Part shown: in pieces, positions 10,685-54,739 of the stretch
Layout: each line of letters starts with the position of its first letter
Numbering within the stretch: position 1 is the stretch's first letter
Origin: an uncultured Lachnospiraceae bacterium
GTDB taxonomy: Bacteria; Bacillota; Clostridia; Lachnospirales; Lachnospiraceae
Direction of reading: 5' to 3'
Length of the DNA: 64,000 bases
Assembly: GCA_947571775.1 (NCBI GenBank)
Contig: CANOZK010000005.1
Coordinates: forward strand, 124,001 to 188,000
Program-made: the position numbers and the translations under genes
The notes under the pieces: generated by a model
Seen by the model: the letters and a program-made list of their open reading frames with translations, nothing else
Told to the model about the DNA's origin: nothing
Database searches by the model: none

Positions 10685-12004
10685 ATGGCTAATTTTTACC
10701 ACTCTGTACGCCTGGACGAGTCTCTATGCAAAGGCTGCATCAACTGCATCAAACGCTGCCCCACGCAAGCTATCCGGGTTAGAAACGGCAAAGCCGTCAT
10801 TACATCGGAATTCTGTATCGACTGCGGCGAATGCATCCGCATCTGCCAAAGCCACGCCAAGCTTCCCACTTATGATTCTGTGGATATTATGAAGAATTAT
10901 AAGTATACCGTTGCTCTGCCCGCGCCTGCCTTATATGGACAGTTTAACAACCTGACGGATGTCAGGGTTGTGCTGACTGCTTTGAAAATTATGGGGTTCG
11001 ATGACGTATACGAAGTCAGCGGCGCGGCAGAGCTTGTCTCGGAAATATCGCGGGATTATGTGCTAAAGCATAAGGAATACTGGCCGATTATTTCTACTGC
11101 CTGCCCCACCATTGTGCGTCTGATCCGTGTACGTTTTCCCAACCTGATTACACACATGCTTCCAGTTCTTCCTCCAGTGGAAATCGCGGCACGTCTCGCG
11201 CGCAAGAAAGCCATAGAGAAAACGGGGCTGCCTTCCAAGGATATCGGCATTTTGTTTATCTCTCCTTGCCCGGCCAAATCTACGTTTGTAAAAGCGCCTC
11301 TGTGTACTGACAAAAGCGAGATTGACGGCGTTTTGGCGATTAAGGACGTTTATCCTCTTTTGCTCGGCCCTATGAAACAGGCCGTGCTGGCCCCGGAAGA
11401 CCTGTCTATTTCAGGCAGGATTGGTATCGGATGGGGTTCTACCGGCGGCGAAGCCGGAGGGCTTCTCTCTGACAGTTATCTAGCCGCAGACGGCATGGAA
11501 AACGTGATCCATGTGCTGGAGGATCTGGAGGATGAGAAATTCCATGATTTGCAGTTTATCGAGTTAAACGCCTGCAACGGCGGCTGCGTCGGCGGCGTGT
11601 TAACCGTGGAAAATCCTTATGTCGCCCAGGCAAAATTAAAACGGCTGCTCAAATACGAGGCGGTGGCCCGTTCCCATCTGGATATGACGCCAGTAGAAAA
11701 GCCCCACTGGAAAAACCGGCTGCAATACGAACCAGTATTCAAACTGGGCGAAAGTTTGCTGGAAAATATCAACAAGATCAACCAAGTGGAACAATTATGC
11801 AATCGGTTCCCCGGACTGGACTGCGGTTCCTGCGGCGCGCCTACCTGCAAGGCTCTGGCAGAGGATATCGTCAGAGGAAAAGCCAGTGAGAATGACTGTA
11901 TCCATATTTTAAGAGAATATTTAAAACAGATTATCAGTCCGTTTTCCATGTTGGACAAAGATTTAAAGCGTGGAGATGCCAATGAGAAGGAGGAGGAAGA
12001 ATGA
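10685..12004 (+). CDS. [FeFe]-hydrogenase-like iron-sulfur protein with altered active-site motif
   Basis: A 439-aa protein: two [4Fe-4S] ferredoxin motifs (C15/18/21/25 and C44/47/50/54), a hydrogenase H-cluster domain, and a C-terminal four-cysteine motif (C380/C383/C388 in CGSCGAPTC, with C405). The H-cluster ligands are C140, C195, C297 and C301. The usual TSCCP reads STACP: the first cysteine, which relays protons to the active site in catalytic enzymes, is Ala139. It is therefore expected to be a sensor or poorly catalytic (group D-type) rather than a bulk hydrogenase. It overlaps the next gene by 4 nt (ATGA). A cytosolic location is expected. Confidence 0.88.
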   Translation: MANFYHSVRLDESLCKGCINCIKRCPTQAIRVRNGKAVITSEFCIDCGECIRICQSHAKLPTYDSVDIMKNYKYTVALPAPALYGQFNNLTDVRVVLTALKIMGFDDVYEVSGAAELVSEISRDYVLKHKEYWPIISTACPTIVRLIRVRFPNLITHMLPVLPPVEIAARLARKKAIEKTGLPSKDIGILFISPCPAKSTFVKAPLCTDKSEIDGVLAIKDVYPLLLGPMKQAVLAPEDLSISGRIGIGWGSTGGEAGGLLSDSYLAADGMENVIHVLEDLEDEKFHDLQFIELNACNGGCVGGVLTVENPYVAQAKLKRLLKYEAVARSHLDMTPVEKPHWKNRLQYEPVFKLGESLLENINKINQVEQLCNRFPGLDCGSCGAPTCKALAEDIVRGKASENDCIHILREYLKQIISPFSMLDKDLKRGDANEKEEEE

Positions 12005-46561: not shown

Positions 46562-46704
46562 ACAAAACCTCCTTTCTTGACTGAGAGTACACGCCCTCTT
46601 GTAGTATATACACTTTTAACAAATAATCCCTGAAAAAAACAAGAAATTTTTGCGGATACTAGGATATATCTCTGAGAAAAGCACATCAGAAAGGAGTGTT
46701 TTCC

Positions 46705-47163
46705 ATGAATTTACAGCATTTATCCATTGCGTCGGTTCCAATACAGTCCTGGGGCCCGATTTATGACGGAGCGCTGGCTTTGAAAAAAGGAACTATTTTC
46801 CAGGATCTGGACATGCCTTTTTTTGCCGCGAACGACACCGAAACAACCAATCGCTGCTGTGAACCGTCCAACGCCTCAGACCCCAAACAACAGGAACGGG
46901 AAGCCATGATGCTGCAAATCTACCAGGTCAGCTTTGAGGCGGACGACCTGCGCCTTTATCTGGATACCCACCCTCAGGATGCCCAGGCATTGGAGCTGTT
47001 AAAGAACCGTCTGATGCAGCGCAGGCAGTTACTGAAAAATTTTGCCCAGCAATTTTATCCACTGACCATGGACTGTATGGCGAATTGTGAACAGATGCAA
47101 GATAAGACTGGATGTTACTGCTGGCAGGAAGGGCCGATGCCCTGGGAAGGAGCGTGTGTCTAA
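46705..47163 (+). CDS. CotJA-CotJB fusion spore coat protein
   Basis: A 152-aa protein. Residues ~15-48 match CotJA (PIQSWGPIYDGALALKKGTIF, here cited in part as WGPIYDGALALKKGTIF, then DLDMPFF). Residues ~72-152 match CotJB (LQIYQVSFEADDLRLYLDT, ending in the WQEGPMPWE motif). In Bacillus these are two genes. A Cys-rich linker (NRCCEPSN) joins them. The ATG at 46705 follows AAAGGAGTG. It shares one base with cotJC (TAATG). Expected in the mother cell and spore coat. Confidence 0.85.
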   Translation: MNLQHLSIASVPIQSWGPIYDGALALKKGTIFQDLDMPFFAANDTETTNRCCEPSNASDPKQQEREAMMLQIYQVSFEADDLRLYLDTHPQDAQALELLKNRLMQRRQLLKNFAQQFYPLTMDCMANCEQMQDKTGCYCWQEGPMPWEGACV

Positions 47164-48127: not shown

Positions 48128-48240
48128 GTACTTTTCTATGAGAAAAATACCAAAAGCCCCAGGGGATTGCGATTTTTCCCGGACCCCTTAAAACGCTGTT
48201 CTTCAAGGGAAAGTATTCAACCAATTTCTGTTTTACCGCT
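48128..48240. repeat. Interspersed repeat, copy B (full)
   Basis: It joins the left part seen at 8701 (GTACTTTTCT, a short stem, CCAAAAGC, GGGGATTGC) to the right part seen at 49391 (CTTAAAACGCTGTTCTTCA, then CAATTTCTG-TTTAC). It provides the last few codons and stop of arsR. Confidence 0.6.
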
Positions 48241-48582
48241 TCGATCCGGCAATTCTGCTGTGAATTCTTTTGCCCTTTGCAGCACGTGAATCAGCCTGTC
48301 GAAGCTTTTGGTATCTGGATCGAAATAATAATAATTTTTGGTTGCTTCCTTGCGTACTTTTAAGATTCCGGCATCCTTTAAAATCTGGAGATGATGGGAT
48401 ACCGCCGGACGTGAGAGATGTGTTTTTTCCGTAATTTCCCCCACCCGCGCCCCGAAACAATTCCTTATTTTCATCATCTCAAGAATCAAATGCTGCCGAT
48501 TTTCATCTCCAAGTGCAGTCAACACTTTCTGACATTTTTCAAAATCCTCTGCTAACATTTCTATATCTGTCTGGGCATGCAT
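48217..48582 (-). CDS. ArsR-family regulator
   Basis: A 121-aa winged-helix repressor: EKTHLSRPAVSHHLQILKDAG is the recognition helix region, followed by the KNYYYFD wing. It has only two cysteines and no ELCVCD-type metal site, so the signal is not the classical arsenic/cadmium site. It is 46 bp after the nitroreductase gene and probably represses that operon through the palindrome at 49295. Its last residues are encoded by the interspersed repeat. Confidence 0.88.
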   Translation of the reverse strand: MHAQTDIEMLAEDFEKCQKVLTALGDENRQHLILEMMKIRNCFGARVGEITEKTHLSRPAVSHHLQILKDAGILKVRKEATKNYYYFDPDTKSFDRLIHVLQRAKEFTAELPDRSGKTEIG

Positions 48583-48628: not shown

Positions 48629-49279
48629 CTATTGTACCTTACGACCTGTGGCAGCCTCAAAATGATATTTTACGATACCAAGATCCAGCTTCGTATAGAA
48701 TCCCTTTTTTGCCTTGGCAAATATCTTTTCGTTTTTTAGGGTAAAATAGAATTTCTGCTGATTCACCGCCGTAGGAGCAAGCAGGGCGGCTTCCATTCCC
48801 TTGGAAAACCAATCTGGCATCGCGGGCGCACAGTTGCATAACTGCTCCACAGGTTTGTTCTTATGTTTGATTCCCTGCGTGGTTCCATATCCCAAGGCGA
48901 TGACGCACACCAGCTTTTCCCCTCTTTTTATTTTAGCGGTGCTCTTTCCGTGCGTCAACGCAACCCAGCAGGTATTCAATCCCAGTTCCTGAGCTTTTAA
49001 CACCAGTTTTTCTCCATAATATCCAACCTTCTCTTCCAAATCCACGCCTTTCTTTCCGACAAGCGCGATATAATTTTCTACTCCACGGAATTTGCCATAA
49101 TGCGCCATGGTAGAGTCGAAACATTTTGGCTCGTCAAAAATTATCTGGATGTTTAAACCGCTTTTGGTATTGCATTCTTTCGCCAAATCCATCAATGTAT
49201 TTCTTTTTTCCTCCTCGATCTCTTTCCCGCTGTATTGCCGTACACTATGGCGAGCTCTCATAATTTCCAAAACGTCCAT
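48629..49279 (-). CDS. Nitroreductase-family flavoprotein
   Basis: A 216-aa FMN-dependent nitroreductase-like protein. The FMN-binding RARHSVRQYSGKEIEEE is at the N-terminus; GYYGEKLVLKAQELGLNTCW and the CVIALGYGT strand follow. It uses NAD(P)H to reduce nitro compounds, quinones or flavins. It is the first gene of a pair with arsR. The ATG at 49279 follows AAAGGAG. Confidence 0.88.
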   Translation of the reverse strand: MDVLEIMRARHSVRQYSGKEIEEEKRNTLMDLAKECNTKSGLNIQIIFDEPKCFDSTMAHYGKFRGVENYIALVGKKGVDLEEKVGYYGEKLVLKAQELGLNTCWVALTHGKSTAKIKRGEKLVCVIALGYGTTQGIKHKNKPVEQLCNCAPAMPDWFSKGMEAALLAPTAVNQQKFYFTLKNEKIFAKAKKGFYTKLDLGIVKYHFEAATGRKVQ

Positions 49280-49500: not shown

Positions 49501-51423
49501 TTACAAATTTTTTACTCGAATCTTCTTTCCTGCTCCTTTTGCCTGAAAAATAGCTTTGTAAGCGGCTGTTTTTTTGGAAGGCACTTTCAATGTACAGGTG
49601 GATTTTATGTTCTTAAACGCGTTTGCGCCAACCTTTGCTTTTGTCAGTTTACTGGTTTTTACAGAAATGCTTGCCAGATTGGTGTCTCCAAAAAATGCTT
49701 TTTTTCCAATGGAGGCGACATTGCTTCCGATTTCCATGGATTTGAGCTTTTTACAGTTAGCAAATGCTTGATTGAAAATGGCAGTTACTTTAAAGCGGTA
49801 TCCGTCGATGGTAATAGTCGCCGGGATTTTTGCCGCTGTAAGGGTTTTTGTATTTGCTTTCAATGCAGTAGCCGTATTGGAACCGGTTACCCGATACTGT
49901 ACTTTATTATAAACAGAAACGGTTCCCTTTTTCGGCCTTGCCGGTGCCGGATTCTCCGGTTCCGGGGTGGCGGTTGGTTCTGGTACTTTTGTATAAGTAA
50001 ATGTGAATGGCAGGTATCCAGTAGAGGAAACGCTGAGCTGTGCGCTTTCTTTGTCTGCCAACGGTTCTGCGTCAGTTACCAGAATGCCGTTGTCACTGAT
50101 AATTTTTACGGATCCGTGTCCGCTGGCTGAATAATTCTTTCCGTCAACTTCTACGGAAGTAATGTTTGCAAGATAATCAAAGAAGTCGCTTTCGCCAAAT
50201 CCCTCTGCTGCTGTCAATGTTTTGTTGACAGAATCGTATGCCGCCGGCATATCCTCCACATATAATTCAAAGGTTGTCTGTAATGGTGCATAGTGGCCTT
50301 TAGCATCTTTTACAGTAAAGGTATATTCTCCTTTTGATGCTGCGGCAAAGCTCAGGCTGTTTCCGGCAACTTCAATTTGCAGGCCCTCTGCGCTGTACTG
50401 CGCTTCATAGTCTGACGGCAGTCCAGACAGTTCCAGAGTGGTAGAGCCTGATGCCGCCGGGGCATTGGCCACATTCAGCGTATAATTTCCAAATTTTACA
50501 GGTACATATTCTTCCATGGGAATTTCATAAATCCCTTTGCTGGTGTAGTAGATAACTTTTTTGATCGTCTGTCCCATCATACCCTGATAATGAACCGAAG
50601 ATGTGGGGCAGTTATGAACAGACTGGGTAAATCCGGCGCACCAGGACAGATTGGTCTGTCTCCAAATATTTTCCAGATGGCGGAGTCCATATCCGGCCTC
50701 GTCAGTTTCTACTACGACGCCGTGTACTTTTTCCCCTTCCAGATCCAGTCCGTCCAAATTCAACTGATAATCTCCATAGGAAGTTTCGGTCAAAAGCTCT
50801 GGCATCACACCCGTTTTCGTAGTGCGTTCGCCCTGCGCCGCTCCAAAACTCAGTGTTCCGTCTGCCTGAACCGTCACTTCCTTGTAATTCTGCGGAATCT
50901 CGCTGTCGTCCAGTAAATAATAAGAATAGCTTTCATTTTCAAACAGAGCGTCTGCGCCAGTATAGGTGCTGGTGCTGGTCTGTCCGCGGTTGGTTACGGT
51001 GATGGAGACAGAATCCTCTGGTTTCACCTGATGGTATTTAGACAGATCTACACCTTCACCGACTTTCACCGGATAGGTAATTCCAGTAATATCGCCGCCG
51101 TTTGGATCCACATGGTAGGAACCTTCCGCCATAGCTGAGGAATTGGTTCTGGTTTTATTTAAAGTTGCAGATGTAAATGCATCCACCGGAATCGTGTTAT
51201 TTTTTACCTCCGCTTTGTAAAAATCGTCATAAGGGATATTCATCAGTACGTATTGGCTGTTTTCGGCAGCGTCCGCTTTTTCCTGTCCCGCCGCTTCTTC
51301 TGTAATGACCAGGTCATTTCCTCCGGCGGCAAAAACGGCTGCCGAAGGCCCGCAGAGTCCGGCGGCCACAGATAGGGCCAGAACTTCGGCAAAAACTCTC
51401 ATTTTTAAATCTTTTCTGTTCAT
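49501..51423 (-). CDS. Secreted Tp47-like protein with BspA-type repeats
   Basis: A 640-aa exported protein: signal peptide (~1-33), an N-terminal domain resembling Treponema Tp47 domain A (YVLMNIPYDDFYKAE, VDAFTSATLNKTR, GYGLRHLENIW), Ig-like middle parts, a Pro-rich segment (EPTATPEPENPAPARP, ~492-507) and C-terminal BspA-like leucine-rich repeats. No lipobox or sortase motif is clear. Function unknown; in clostridial genomes such proteins sit next to FMN_bind and NapH-like genes, as here, which suggests a surface ligand-binding part of that system. Tp47 assignment is from motif memory. Confidence 0.65.
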   Translation of the reverse strand: MNRKDLKMRVFAEVLALSVAAGLCGPSAAVFAAGGNDLVITEEAAGQEKADAAENSQYVLMNIPYDDFYKAEVKNNTIPVDAFTSATLNKTRTNSSAMAEGSYHVDPNGGDITGITYPVKVGEGVDLSKYHQVKPEDSVSITVTNRGQTSTSTYTGADALFENESYSYYLLDDSEIPQNYKEVTVQADGTLSFGAAQGERTTKTGVMPELLTETSYGDYQLNLDGLDLEGEKVHGVVVETDEAGYGLRHLENIWRQTNLSWCAGFTQSVHNCPTSSVHYQGMMGQTIKKVIYYTSKGIYEIPMEEYVPVKFGNYTLNVANAPAASGSTTLELSGLPSDYEAQYSAEGLQIEVAGNSLSFAAASKGEYTFTVKDAKGHYAPLQTTFELYVEDMPAAYDSVNKTLTAAEGFGESDFFDYLANITSVEVDGKNYSASGHGSVKIISDNGILVTDAEPLADKESAQLSVSSTGYLPFTFTYTKVPEPTATPEPENPAPARPKKGTVSVYNKVQYRVTGSNTATALKANTKTLTAAKIPATITIDGYRFKVTAIFNQAFANCKKLKSMEIGSNVASIGKKAFFGDTNLASISVKTSKLTKAKVGANAFKNIKSTCTLKVPSKKTAAYKAIFQAKGAGKKIRVKNL

Positions 51424-51496
51424 GATATTTGGTTTCCTCCTTCAAATGTTTTCACTATTTATTAAAAGTCAGCTAAAATCAGCCAACGATTAATCT

Positions 51497-52351
51497 TTAT
51501 AAACCAATCCACAGATACAGGGCAATCAGCAGCCCTGTCCGTAACAGGGTAAAAACAATTTCATTCCCCTGAATTTCTTTGAGCCCGCAATGAATGTTCT
51601 GTTTGGGGCAGGCGCCAATGCATTTCTGGCACTGAAAACAATCCTCTGTTGTCTCGTAAAAACCGTCAAAAGGAAGTGCAATGTCGGACGGACATTTACG
51701 CGTACATCTGGAACATCCTTTGAGACAATCCCCACGGCTTCGGCGCAGAGAAAAAGCCGGCAGCACCGGAAGCAGGGAGAAAATTGCCCCCATAGGGCAA
51801 AGGAAGCGGCAGAAAAACCGTTCCTGTACACCCATTCCTAAGAAAATCAAAAACAGCAGAAGCATTCCAGGAAGATGGCCGCTTAGACGGAAGTTCCCAG
51901 CATGAAGCATAGAAAACACTTCCCAGGGACTGCTTCCTTTTATCGGGGGATAGACTCCCAGGTAACATAAGATTACAATCAGCACCAGTACCAAGTATTT
52001 TACAGCAGAAAGCTTTTCCGATATTTTTTCGCTTAGCTTGAGCGGTTCTTTGCCGCATTTCTTGCATATCCAGCAATAAAAAGTATGTATGCCGTCTCCA
52101 AGACTTCCAAACGCGCAGGAAAAGCCGCAGAAAAACCGTCCGAATACAATGGTAAATCCGCATAATCCCACAAGCGTTTTCAGAAACGCCGTCCAGGCAA
52201 TTTTTTCTCCGGCTCCCAACTGCGCGGCAATATATGTGATTCCGGCAAAAGACGCGGTAAATGCAGAGGAAAAGAAAAGAAAGGAAAACAGTTGCAGAGC
52301 GGCCCGAAGCCACTGATATTTTTGGTGTTTTTTTCTCTTGGATTTTTCCAT
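51497..52351 (-). CDS. NapH/NosR-like membrane 4Fe-4S protein
   Basis: A 284-aa membrane protein with about five helices. Two cytosol-facing motifs FCGFSCAFGSLGD and FCRFLCPMGAIFS flank the membrane part, followed by two [4Fe-4S] clusters (CLKGCSRCTRKCP and CFQCQKCIGACP). NapH and NosR homologues pass electrons from the cell interior or quinol to periplasmic flavin or metal sites. It sits 1 bp after an FMN_bind gene, so the likely acceptor is the covalently bound flavin of the two neighbouring proteins. Confidence 0.85.
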   Translation of the reverse strand: MEKSKRKKHQKYQWLRAALQLFSFLFFSSAFTASFAGITYIAAQLGAGEKIAWTAFLKTLVGLCGFTIVFGRFFCGFSCAFGSLGDGIHTFYCWICKKCGKEPLKLSEKISEKLSAVKYLVLVLIVILCYLGVYPPIKGSSPWEVFSMLHAGNFRLSGHLPGMLLLFLIFLGMGVQERFFCRFLCPMGAIFSLLPVLPAFSLRRSRGDCLKGCSRCTRKCPSDIALPFDGFYETTEDCFQCQKCIGACPKQNIHCGLKEIQGNEIVFTLLRTGLLIALYLWIGL

Positions 52352-52352
52352 G

Positions 52353-52805
52353 CTAGGTTTCCGCCTTTTCTAATGCCTGTGCCACGGCGTTTTTGATTCC
52401 GGCAGAGCTAAATGTGGCTCCAGTTATAGTATCCACATCCGCTGACTGTTTCTGCAACATAGCTGGAATGATCTCTTTTGCCATGGACAGATAAGCCGCA
52501 TCTTCTTTTTTTGCCGATAAAAGCTCAATCTCTGTAAGCCTTCCTTTCTCCACCTTCACTTTCACCGTGATGCTTCCTCCAAATCCTTGGGCCTCTCCGT
52601 CCCATTCCCCATCGGTATAGACGCCCGCAGACTCGGTTTCCTGAGTTTCTTGGCTGCTCTGGATAAATTTCTCCAGCGCCGCTACCTGAGCGCAGAGTTT
52701 GGCAAATTCATCCTCTTTTTCTCTGTTTTTCAACACCGCGTTATAACCCGCCAGCATACATACAACCGCTGCTAGGCTTACTGTTTTTATAAAAAGTCCT
52801 TGCAT
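52353..52805 (-). CDS. Membrane-anchored FMN-binding domain protein
   Basis: A 150-aa protein with an N-terminal transmembrane segment (~5-22), a coiled-coil-like stretch (~28-55) and one FMN_bind domain (~62-150: YTDGEWDGEAQGFGG ... DTITGATFSS). In this family ApbE attaches FMN by a phosphoester bond to the second Thr/Ser of the [ST]GA[ST]xS motif, here within TGATFSS. It should hold a redox flavin outside the membrane. No apbE is in the window. It lies 7 bp after the four-domain protein. Confidence 0.88.
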   Translation of the reverse strand: MQGLFIKTVSLAAVVCMLAGYNAVLKNREKEDEFAKLCAQVAALEKFIQSSQETQETESAGVYTDGEWDGEAQGFGGSITVKVKVEKGRLTEIELLSAKKEDAAYLSMAKEIIPAMLQKQSADVDTITGATFSSAGIKNAVAQALEKAET

Positions 52806-52812
52806 CGCCTAC

Positions 52813-54588
52813 TTACTCCTGCTGCCTTTGTGCTTTTTTGAGTGCCTGCCGGCAGGCTTCGAGGATCGATTGAGAGGAACAGGTCGCGTGCGACACGGCG
52901 TCGATGTCCTCCAGGCTGTTTTTCTCCAAGATCTGGCTGACCACGCCGGGATACTTTGTGCTTCCACTGACCGCCCGCCGGATATAGGAAGCATTTTCGG
53001 AACCCCCATCCCCAGAAATATTTTTGATTTCTGCTATCTTGTCGTTTTCCATGACGAGAGTCAGTGTCAGGCCATAGGGAGCAAAATCTTCATACATATC
53101 TGGGGTGCAGGGCACGGTTATCATATATTCTCCGTCCAGATAAAAAGAAGTGCCACTGTCATTATCTTCCTCCTTATCTTCCAAATCATCTCTGTTATCC
53201 GGTGCGCTGCTCTCTTCTGGAAGAGCAGGCGTTGGCTCCTGAGGACTTGGTGTTTCTTCTGGCTGAGGTTTTGGTATTTCCTCTGGCTTTGGCGTTTCTT
53301 GCGGCTTTGGACTCACTTCGGTTTTCGAGTCTGCCGCTTCTTGGGCTGCTTTCAAGGCATTGCCGACTCCTTCCAGGATACCCTGAGAGCTGTAAGTCGC
53401 TCCGGTTATAACATCTACCTTCGTACTTTGGTTTTGAATAATCTGATCTACAATCGTCTTTGCACGCTGGAAGAATGCATCGTCTTCCCCGTCATGGCTG
53501 GTAATCTGAATTTTCTGGATGGTTTTGTTTTTGATTACCACAATAATGGCAATGTCTCCCCCAAAGCCCTCTCCTACTCCGGTATAAGCTCCATTCGGAT
53601 AAGGAAATAACCCGGTGGGCGCGGCAGGTTCGATGGTTACGGCAGGTTTCTGATTGGATATGGCAGGTGTTATAGGAGGCACTGTGACTGGCTGCGGAGC
53701 GGTTGTTGCGCTTTGAACTCCTGTAAGAGCATTTTTTACTGCACCGATGATTCCGCTGGAGCTGTAAGTCGCTCCGGTTACGGTATCCACATCCAGTCTT
53801 TGAGCGGAAAGGATGCTGCTGATCACGCCTTCTTTTGCATGGTTAAAAAATGACTCGTCGTCCGAATGGCTGAGGATCTCAATCGCCGTAATGGTTTTGT
53901 CCTTTACGGTCACCGAGACTCTTACCTGACCGGAAAAGCCTTCGGCGCTCCCTTCGTAGGTGCCGTCTGCATAGTCAAAGGCCCCCTGCCCGATGGATAC
54001 AGTCCTGGGTGTGCTGGTTGGACTGCTGGTTGGATTGCTGGTTTTTACCTCTGTACTTGTATTTTCTCCAGTATCCGATTCCCCTGTGAGGGCGTTTTTT
54101 ACTGCCTGGATAATTCCTCTGGAGCTGTACGTAGCCCCGGTTACGGTATCCACATCCAGTCTTTGAGCGGAAAGGATGCTGCTGATCACGCCTTCTTTTG
54201 CACGGTTAAAAAATGCCTCGTCATCCGAATGGCTAAGGATCTCAATCGCACCCGCCGACTGATCCTGAATTTTTACAGAAACCATAATTTCCCCGCGGTA
54301 ACCGGTTCCAGTTCCCTGGTAAGTGCCATCTTTCAAATCGAAGGCTCCTTTTGCCTGCGGTTCCTGCGTAGGAGTTACCGCCTCTTCTTGCGCCGGTGTC
54401 TCTGTTGGTACTGCGGTCTGCGTCCTTTTGGTCTTTGCAGGCACATCTGCTTTTTTGGTAATCTGAAAATCTTCCAGTCCATAAGCGGGAACCGTATAAC
54501 CGTCCAGGCTGACCGCTGCGCCCACGGCCACGCCGCCTACGGCCAGAATCGGCGCCAGCGCAGGGACAATTTTCCATATTTTTTTCAT
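52813..54588 (-). CDS. Four-domain FMN-binding surface protein
   Basis: A 591-aa exported protein with an N-terminal hydrophobic segment (~5-27) and four FMN_bind domains at about 81-168, 201-290, 327-413 and 482-584, joined by Pro/Thr/Ser-rich linkers (for example KPQETPKPEEIPKPQPEETP). Attachment motifs are TGATYSS at 150-156, 271-277 and 395-401; the fourth reads SHATCSS (566-572) and has lost the TGA core, so it is probably not flavinylated. Domains 1 and 2 are nearly identical in DNA, a recent duplication. It may act as a flexible multi-flavin electron wire outside the cell (inference). Confidence 0.88.
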   Translation of the reverse strand: MKKIWKIVPALAPILAVGGVAVGAAVSLDGYTVPAYGLEDFQITKKADVPAKTKRTQTAVPTETPAQEEAVTPTQEPQAKGAFDLKDGTYQGTGTGYRGEIMVSVKIQDQSAGAIEILSHSDDEAFFNRAKEGVISSILSAQRLDVDTVTGATYSSRGIIQAVKNALTGESDTGENTSTEVKTSNPTSSPTSTPRTVSIGQGAFDYADGTYEGSAEGFSGQVRVSVTVKDKTITAIEILSHSDDESFFNHAKEGVISSILSAQRLDVDTVTGATYSSSGIIGAVKNALTGVQSATTAPQPVTVPPITPAISNQKPAVTIEPAAPTGLFPYPNGAYTGVGEGFGGDIAIIVVIKNKTIQKIQITSHDGEDDAFFQRAKTIVDQIIQNQSTKVDVITGATYSSQGILEGVGNALKAAQEAADSKTEVSPKPQETPKPEEIPKPQPEETPSPQEPTPALPEESSAPDNRDDLEDKEEDNDSGTSFYLDGEYMITVPCTPDMYEDFAPYGLTLTLVMENDKIAEIKNISGDGGSENASYIRRAVSGSTKYPGVVSQILEKNSLEDIDAVSHATCSSQSILEACRQALKKAQRQQE

Positions 54589-54662
54589 TTTTACAGAATT
54601 GCTTCCTTTCCTTTTCTTACTAATACGCCCAAACTCAAATGGCCTGTTTTAACAGAAATATA

Positions 54663-54676
54663 TTAGTTATAACTAA
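54663..54676 (-). promoter_or_regulatory. Palindromic operator at the start of the FMN operon
   Basis: TTAGTTATAACTAA, a perfect 14-bp palindrome of TTAG-N6-CTAA form like MarR/SlyA sites, lying about +5 to +18 of the predicted transcript. Bound repressor would block the operon. No MarR gene is in the window. Confidence 0.55.
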
Positions 54677-54687
54677 CTCATGAATAG

Positions 54688-54715
54688 ATTATCATATTTA
54701 GATACGCGCTGTCAA
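54688..54715 (-). promoter_or_regulatory. Promoter of the FMN-binding operon
   Basis: Minus strand: perfect TTGACA (54710-54715), 16-bp spacer, GATAAT (54688-54693); start near 54681. The leader to the ATG at 54588 is about 95 nt. Confidence 0.7.
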
Positions 54716-54724
54716 ACCCATAAA

Positions 54725-54739
54725 TGATAATGTTTCTCA
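54725..54739. promoter_or_regulatory. Fur-like box
   Basis: TGATAATGTTTCTCA matches the 7-1-7 Fur pattern TGATAAT-N-ATTATCA at 12 of 14 positions. It abuts the -35 box of the FMN operon. A second TGATAAT half-site covers the -10 box (54688-54694). Iron control is plausible but not proven. Confidence 0.45.

Follow-up and report, generated by a model that had tools for sequence, protein, structure and literature searches.

A NapH-type flavin operon with a Tp47-like surface protein and a Fur-like box in an uncultured Lachnospiraceae bacterium

In a published class of gene clusters (Meheust et al. 2021, PMC8238504), a NapH-like carrier feeds FMN_bind proteins, and a multi-flavinylated protein extends toward a protein of the cell wall or surface. 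In the current study, we analysed a stretch of 64,000 nucleotides (the window) from an uncultured Lachnospiraceae bacterium (GenBank assembly GCA_947571775.1, contig CANOZK010000005.1, positions 124,001 to 188,000 of the forward strand) and characterised a four-gene operon on its minus strand whose core belongs to this class and is not a new system. Like the published clusters, the operon combines a NapH-like Fe-S protein (PF12801), a separate FMN_bind protein, a multi-FMN_bind protein and a large surface protein; unlike those clusters, which are described without Tp47, it has a recurrent Tp47-family partner, a Fur-like box and an unlinked apbE. We found that the linkage between Tp47 and flavin genes is conserved and that the Fur-like box recurs before iron genes. 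With some reserve, we lean toward the reading that the operon encodes a Fur-regulated, NapH-type flavinylated electron-transfer system with a Tp47-family surface end, whose role is to reduce ferric or haem iron for uptake.

Listeria-type extracellular electron transfer (EET; Ndh2, DmkAB, EetAB, FmnAB and PplA) shares with this system ApbE-flavinylated surface proteins (predicted here), ferric iron as a candidate acceptor and EetB-type genes for the export of flavin adenine dinucleotide (FAD), which occur in the window genome and in sister operons. Unlike the Listeria type, the window system has a NapH-like Fe-S carrier and no PplA-like protein, and no UbiA-type prenyltransferase was found. CbFMN4 of a Clostridiaceae bacterium, shown to be flavinylated by ApbE (PMC10339131), likewise carries four FMN_bind domains on one secreted chain, but the site in the terminal domain of the window protein is degenerate (DAVSHAT). 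Treponema pallidum Tp47 (TP0574, PDB 1o75; PF14888/PF14889) has its a and c domains represented in sister operons and a motif, D-x-V/F-[ST]-[SR]-A-T, in common with the window module; unlike Tp47, the window protein has BspA repeats and is not recognised by the Pfam Tp47 models. NapH-like flavin clusters, multi-flavinylated proteins, EetB, and Tp47 as an antigen and beta-lactam-binding protein are already known; in the literature that we searched, no link between Tp47 and flavins was found.

The operon and its predicted flavin path

A sequence-only reading of this DNA had described four co-directional genes with gaps of 1-73 bp. The open reading frames (ORFs) were re-found on the minus strand at 49501-54588 with gaps of 7, 1 and 73 bp, and the identities proposed for them (four FMN_bind domains, one FMN_bind domain, NapH-like, BspA-repeat) were matched by Pfam and NapH-family models. 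The coding features are as follows (window coordinates).

52813..54588, minus strand: 591-aa multi-flavin protein, secreted or membrane-anchored, with four FMN_bind domains (Pfam E 3e-52)
54088-54303, 53725-53940, 53350-53568 and 52837-53061, minus strand: the FMN_bind domains of the 591-aa protein (four Pfam stretches)
52353..52805, minus strand: 150-aa FMN_bind protein with an N-terminal membrane anchor and the site DTITGAT (Pfam E 6e-15)
51497..52351, minus strand: 284-aa NapH-like membrane ferredoxin (Fer4_5 and NapH-family models)
49501..51423, minus strand: 640-aa secreted surface protein with a Tp47-like module, a domain like the haemoglobin-interacting domain (HID) of Shr, and C-terminal BspA leucine-rich repeats (LRR)
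49984..51273, minus strand: 430-aa Tp47-like module, including the HID-like domain (hhalign, AlphaFold 2 and Foldseek)
51163..51183, minus strand: DAFTSAT motif, similar to an ApbE site but with Ser for Gly, and almost invariant in the family

Canonical ApbE sites are present in three of the four domains of the 591-aa protein (DTVTGAT, DTVTGAT and DVITGAT), the fourth being degenerate, and the operon thereby contains the FMN_bind protein with an ApbE site by which NapH-like flavinylation clusters are recognised. So does it contain their NapH-like Fe-S membrane protein (PF12801): the 284-aa protein has all the Fe-S cysteines that would be expected, in two [4Fe-4S] motifs and two CxxxC motifs of the membrane part, and they are kept in 42-43 of 43 relatives. 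It scores above the cut-off for Fer4_5 and matches NapH models at E 6e-18, yet falls under the NapH equivalog cut-off.

The sequence-only reading had made the presence of apbE in the genome a check on itself, and one copy was found. It lies on another contig, while in relatives apbE sits inside the operon; location in the same cluster is usual, but the published definition asks for a second FMN_bind gene at the locus and does not demand it, and a single apbE can act in trans. The genome also holds an eetA-like NusG_II gene adjoining eetB (PF07456, G000:C2:131879), and in relatives eetA/eetB, with apbE, are found within the operon. EetB is an ECF-S subunit for FAD export, often encoded beside apbE (PMC9973259). 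The claim that known EET genes are missing therefore stands for the window but fails for the genome: Ndh2 is absent from the window operon (by ORFs and Pfam, in a search that covered the window), and no PplA-like lipoprotein is found among the FMN_bind proteins of the genome (an RnfG-type protein of an Rnf cluster, a 133-aa protein and those of this operon only), but eetA and eetB are present outside the window. The idea of a distinct route is partly right: a search for a UbiA-type prenyltransferase (PF01040; DmkA type) gave no match in the genome, the control being found in 14/14 genomes. Because no such enzyme was found, endogenous menaquinone, and with it a Listeria-type demethylmenaquinone route, appears unlikely in this organism, and the electron source is probably ferredoxin or an exogenous quinone.

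Taken together, the gene set, the domains and apbE support the flavin path that had been proposed, from the NapH-like protein through the membrane FMN_bind protein and the multi-FMN_bind protein to the surface protein.

In about 10 relatives, the terminal FMN_bind domain of the multi-flavin proteins has a degenerate site (SRAT or SHAT) and two recurrent cysteines; the swap of Gly for Arg or His is seen in these and in the window protein. Such a domain may be a docking or disulfide domain.

The Tp47-like surface protein and its linkage to flavin genes

The 640-aa protein had been described as Tp47-like, a resemblance that the Pfam Tp47 models (PF14888/PF14889) do not recover, either in this protein or elsewhere in its genome, but that profile comparison and a fold search bear out. 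A profile of 25 window-type modules matched genuine Tp47 a/c domains in its N-terminal part (hhalign probability 94.9, E 4.6e-8). The AlphaFold model of the window module (predicted local distance difference test 90.8, predicted template-modelling score 0.83) matched 1o75 in Foldseek with probability 1.00 and a template-modelling (TM) score of 0.37-0.40, the best TM score among the 50 matches listed. On the strength of these two matches, the window protein is a remote homologue of Tp47, not a family member by Pfam models. Pfam itself assigns LRR_5/BspA repeats (E 1.4e-10) and, below threshold, the Shr-type haemoglobin-interacting domain, against which the profile of window-type modules gave E 0.01.

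Sister proteins connect the window type to the family. They join the window-type module to genuine Tp47 a/c domains (PF14889 E 6e-65, PF14888 E 5e-75) and to an N-terminal FMN_bind domain; one of them matched T. pallidum Tp47 (1o75) at E 1e-14 in a single-sequence phmmer search. Near-invariant columns of the window-type alignment (D31, S35, A36 and T37) fall in a motif, D-x-x-[ST]-[RS]-A-T, that is present in 55/56 Tp47 a domains, in 37/43 window-type modules and in 1o75 (FDAVSRAT). The motif resembles an ApbE site with the Gly replaced, and since no broader homology to FMN_bind is detectable, we treat it as a lead. In the Tp47 module the motif (DAFTSAT in the window protein) is a candidate flavinylation site, with Ser or Arg in place of Gly; a change of Gly to Ala reduces flavinylation of a tested protein (PMC12052999). 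The idea that Tp47 is itself a derived FMN_bind domain was rejected for now: hhalign comparison of FMN_bind with both Tp47 alignments gave probabilities of 0.6-3.6%, with 10-18 columns aligned, mostly near the D-x-V-S-x-A-T motif.

The linkage between Tp47 genes and flavin genes is conserved. Among 200 sampled genomes of the bacterial family, relatives judged by a strong full-module match occur in several genera, and around most of them the order apbE, multi-FMN, FMN1, NapH, (eetA, eetB) and Tp47 type is recognisable. A scan of named gut genomes for genuine Tp47, seeded with exact peptides and so missing distant holders, gave 51 loci. FMN_bind is encoded outside the Tp47 gene at 44 of these, NapH at 43 and apbE at 37 (all three at 34), with eetB at 26 and eetA at 22. 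The loci span Bacillota and Actinomycetota with varying gene orders, and their hosts include Faecalibacterium, Blautia, Coprococcus, Fusicatenibacter, Eubacterium ramulus, Anaerobutyricum hallii, Thomasclavelia, Collinsella and Eggerthella; the gene set is thus kept far outside close relatives, which the sequence-only reading had named as a check. Five loci lack flavin genes, but four of them are on short contigs or near a contig end and only that of Anaerostipes (L087) is fully flanked. We also found a second architecture, in which a Tp47-like lipoprotein is paired with a membrane protein that ends in an FMN_bind domain; in one case this partner also has a weak, sub-threshold ferric-reductase-like domain. 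When 398 genomes of the phylum were scanned with the Pfam Tp47_c model, no match was obtained, but the control gave none either; either the family is patchy or its holders were not in the sample.

The Fur-like box and iron genes

The region upstream of the operon contains the following elements.

54688..54715, minus strand: sigma-70-like promoter TTGACA-16-GATAAT (score 11/12)
54725..54739, minus strand: Fur-like box TGAGAAACATTATCA, immediately upstream of the -35 element
54663..54676, no strand assigned: perfect 14-bp palindrome TTAGTTATAACTAA, 12-25 bp 3' of the -10 element

Both the good promoter and the perfect palindrome noticed earlier were recovered. The box TGAGAAACATTATCA has 2 mismatches to the 7-1-7 box, and at <=3 mismatches the window holds five 7-1-7 boxes against 4.3 expected, which is near chance; the classical 19-bp Fur box has no match at <=3 mismatches. 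Taken alone, then, the window box would be weak evidence of iron control.

It does not stand alone. The upstream regions of sister operons carry a recurrent TGAGAAnnnTTCTCA form, and the consensus TGAKAANNNTTMTCA has 5 exact sites in the genome, against 0 for the reversed control. One is that of this operon; another lies upstream of genes for a DUF6110 protein and a P-type ATPase. Before feoAB there are two sites, each with 1 mismatch. In Clostridioides difficile, FezA and FezB of the ferrosomes are repressed by Fur (PMC12574912); we infer that DUF6110 is a Fez protein and that the operon of DUF6110 and the ATPase is ferrosome-like. In three Faecalibacterium genomes the DUF6110/ATPase pair lies within ~5 kb of the flavin operon, as does the ATPase in R. 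callidus. At <=1 mismatch, TGAKAANNNTTMTCA is found at 7/29 flavin-operon heads and 9/32 Tp47-gene heads versus 9/546 other genes; the 7/29 is partly circular, as the consensus was refined on operon heads, and the relatives are not independent, while the Tp47-head, feoAB and ferrosome-like sites lie outside the set used for refinement. The genome encodes three FUR-family proteins to go with the box common to feoAB and the DUF6110/ATPase genes. Because the Fur-like box recurs before feoAB, the ferrosome-like operon and sister operons, the iron-type control suggested by the sequence-only reading gains ground, and predicted control of the operon by Fur is supported.

The palindrome TTAGTTATAACTAA is a possible operator or 5' RNA element. 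Its exact form occurs once in the genome, and near copies number 11 against 35 in the reversed control; as the operator of a regulon it was rejected. An element with 2 mismatches to it, in the same orientation relative to transcription, lies between feoA and feoB (G000:C11:7467) and is possibly an operator or RNA element as well.

Several neighbouring or related genes were noted in passing. Directly after feoB is a gene for a truncated, 94-aa Fur-family protein with a Cys-rich tail (L132, G000:C11, contig coordinates 9579-9863), and an exact Fur-like box precedes a DUF2325 gene (L126, G000:C9:22832). Next to the operon on its downstream side, and in the same orientation, are genes for an ArsR-family regulator (window 48217-48582) and a TM1586-type nitroreductase (48629-49279). 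Farther away, the spore coat genes CotJA and CotJB are apparently fused in one ORF (window 46696-47163), followed by an overlapping ORF for a Mn-catalase (CotJC-like), and window 10685-12004 encodes a protein resembling [FeFe]-hydrogenase, which has ferredoxin domains and, at the C-terminus, an FeS domain.

Possible roles of the system

In the mechanism that we propose, a cytosolic donor, probably ferredoxin, would pass electrons to the Fe-S clusters of the NapH-like protein and so across the membrane, from where they would move to the flavin mononucleotide (FMN) of the anchored one-domain protein, then to the covalent FMNs of the four-domain protein, and finally to an acceptor that the Tp47-family surface protein holds or recognises. 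The FMNs would be attached by ApbE from its separate locus, and EetB/EetA would supply extracytosolic FAD. As the acceptor, ferric iron is most likely, either as such or in a complex such as haem; under iron scarcity its reduction would serve assimilation, and FeoAB would import the resulting Fe2+. The genes, domains and sites, the presence of apbE and eetAB, the Tp47-flavin linkage and the common box are computed observations; the direction of electron flow, the donor, the acceptor and the part played by the Tp47 protein are our interpretation of them.

Some of our own findings weigh against this iron-reducing role. Besides the circularity mentioned above, the box lies upstream of the -35 element, unlike the usual position of a repressor site; the genome's apbE has no Fur-like box; no FeoB homologue was found near the operons; the HID match of the window protein is weak and under the Pfam cut-off; and the terminal FMN_bind domain of the 591-aa protein (window 52837-53061) is degenerate.

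The same path could instead dispose of excess reductant, in respiration or fermentation, onto an organic or quinone-like gut acceptor bound by the Tp47-family proteins. NapH-like systems often serve respiratory reductases, with acceptors that are for the most part not known (PMC8238504); a four-flavin wire and a large surface protein would fit a bulk acceptor, and Tp47-type surface proteins differ strongly between species in size and repeats. However, feoAB and the ferrosome-like operon have a Fur-like box in common with this operon, several sister operons lie close to a ferrosome-like P-type ATPase, and the cluster lacks a dedicated reductase domain. These points argue against such a role, which we consider rather unlikely. 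Alternatively, and with much less probability, the flavins might need no external acceptor, serving instead to maintain cell-wall disulfides or a surface protein, which might be the Tp47-type protein itself, in the reduced state. The two recurrent cysteines of the degenerate terminal FMN_bind domain (at the C.PDEDEDF and ATCSS positions) and the recurrent HNCPTS..HY stretch of the window-type module are consistent with this, but no thioredoxin-like or MsrA/B gene was recognised in the operons, and genuine Tp47 a/c domains lack these cysteines, as do several window-type modules.

It may also be asked whether the Tp47-type protein belongs to the path at all, or has no part in it, being an adhesin or a cell-wall protein, as the name penicillin-binding protein Tp47 might suggest, whose gene shares a transcription unit with a flavin system able to work without it. 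For T. pallidum Tp47, beta-lactam binding and penicillinase activity have been described (PMC11057208), Ig-like and BspA repeats are typical of adhesins, and a few Tp47 genes, such as that of Anaerostipes (L087), are solitary. Co-occurrence with FMN_bind at 44/51 loci, across two phyla and in differing gene orders, argues against mere cohabitation, as do the N-terminal FMN_bind domain fused to Tp47 domains and the pairing of Tp47-type proteins with two kinds of membrane flavoprotein; we regard a separate adhesin as improbable.

If the Tp47-type protein is indeed the surface end of an iron-reducing flavin path, the reading could extend further. T. pallidum has an annotated FMN-binding membrane protein, TP0572, two locus tags from Tp47 (TP0574), an arrangement that we liken to the two-gene pairs of Tp47-like lipoprotein and FMN_bind membrane protein found here. 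Tentatively, then, the whole Tp47 family, the syphilis antigen included, might face the substrate in flavin-based extracytosolic electron transfer, with iron reduction as the probable function. This gives a testable hypothesis for a protein long used in syphilis serology and named a penicillin-binding protein, whose native role is unsettled. NapH-like flavin clusters number in the thousands, mostly without a known acceptor, and the present operon adds two handles on them, the Fur-like box and the Tp47 partner. The operon is carried by abundant genera of the human gut (Faecalibacterium, Blautia, Coprococcus, Fusicatenibacter, Eubacterium, Anaerobutyricum and Collinsella), and it may set how these gut commensals gain iron.

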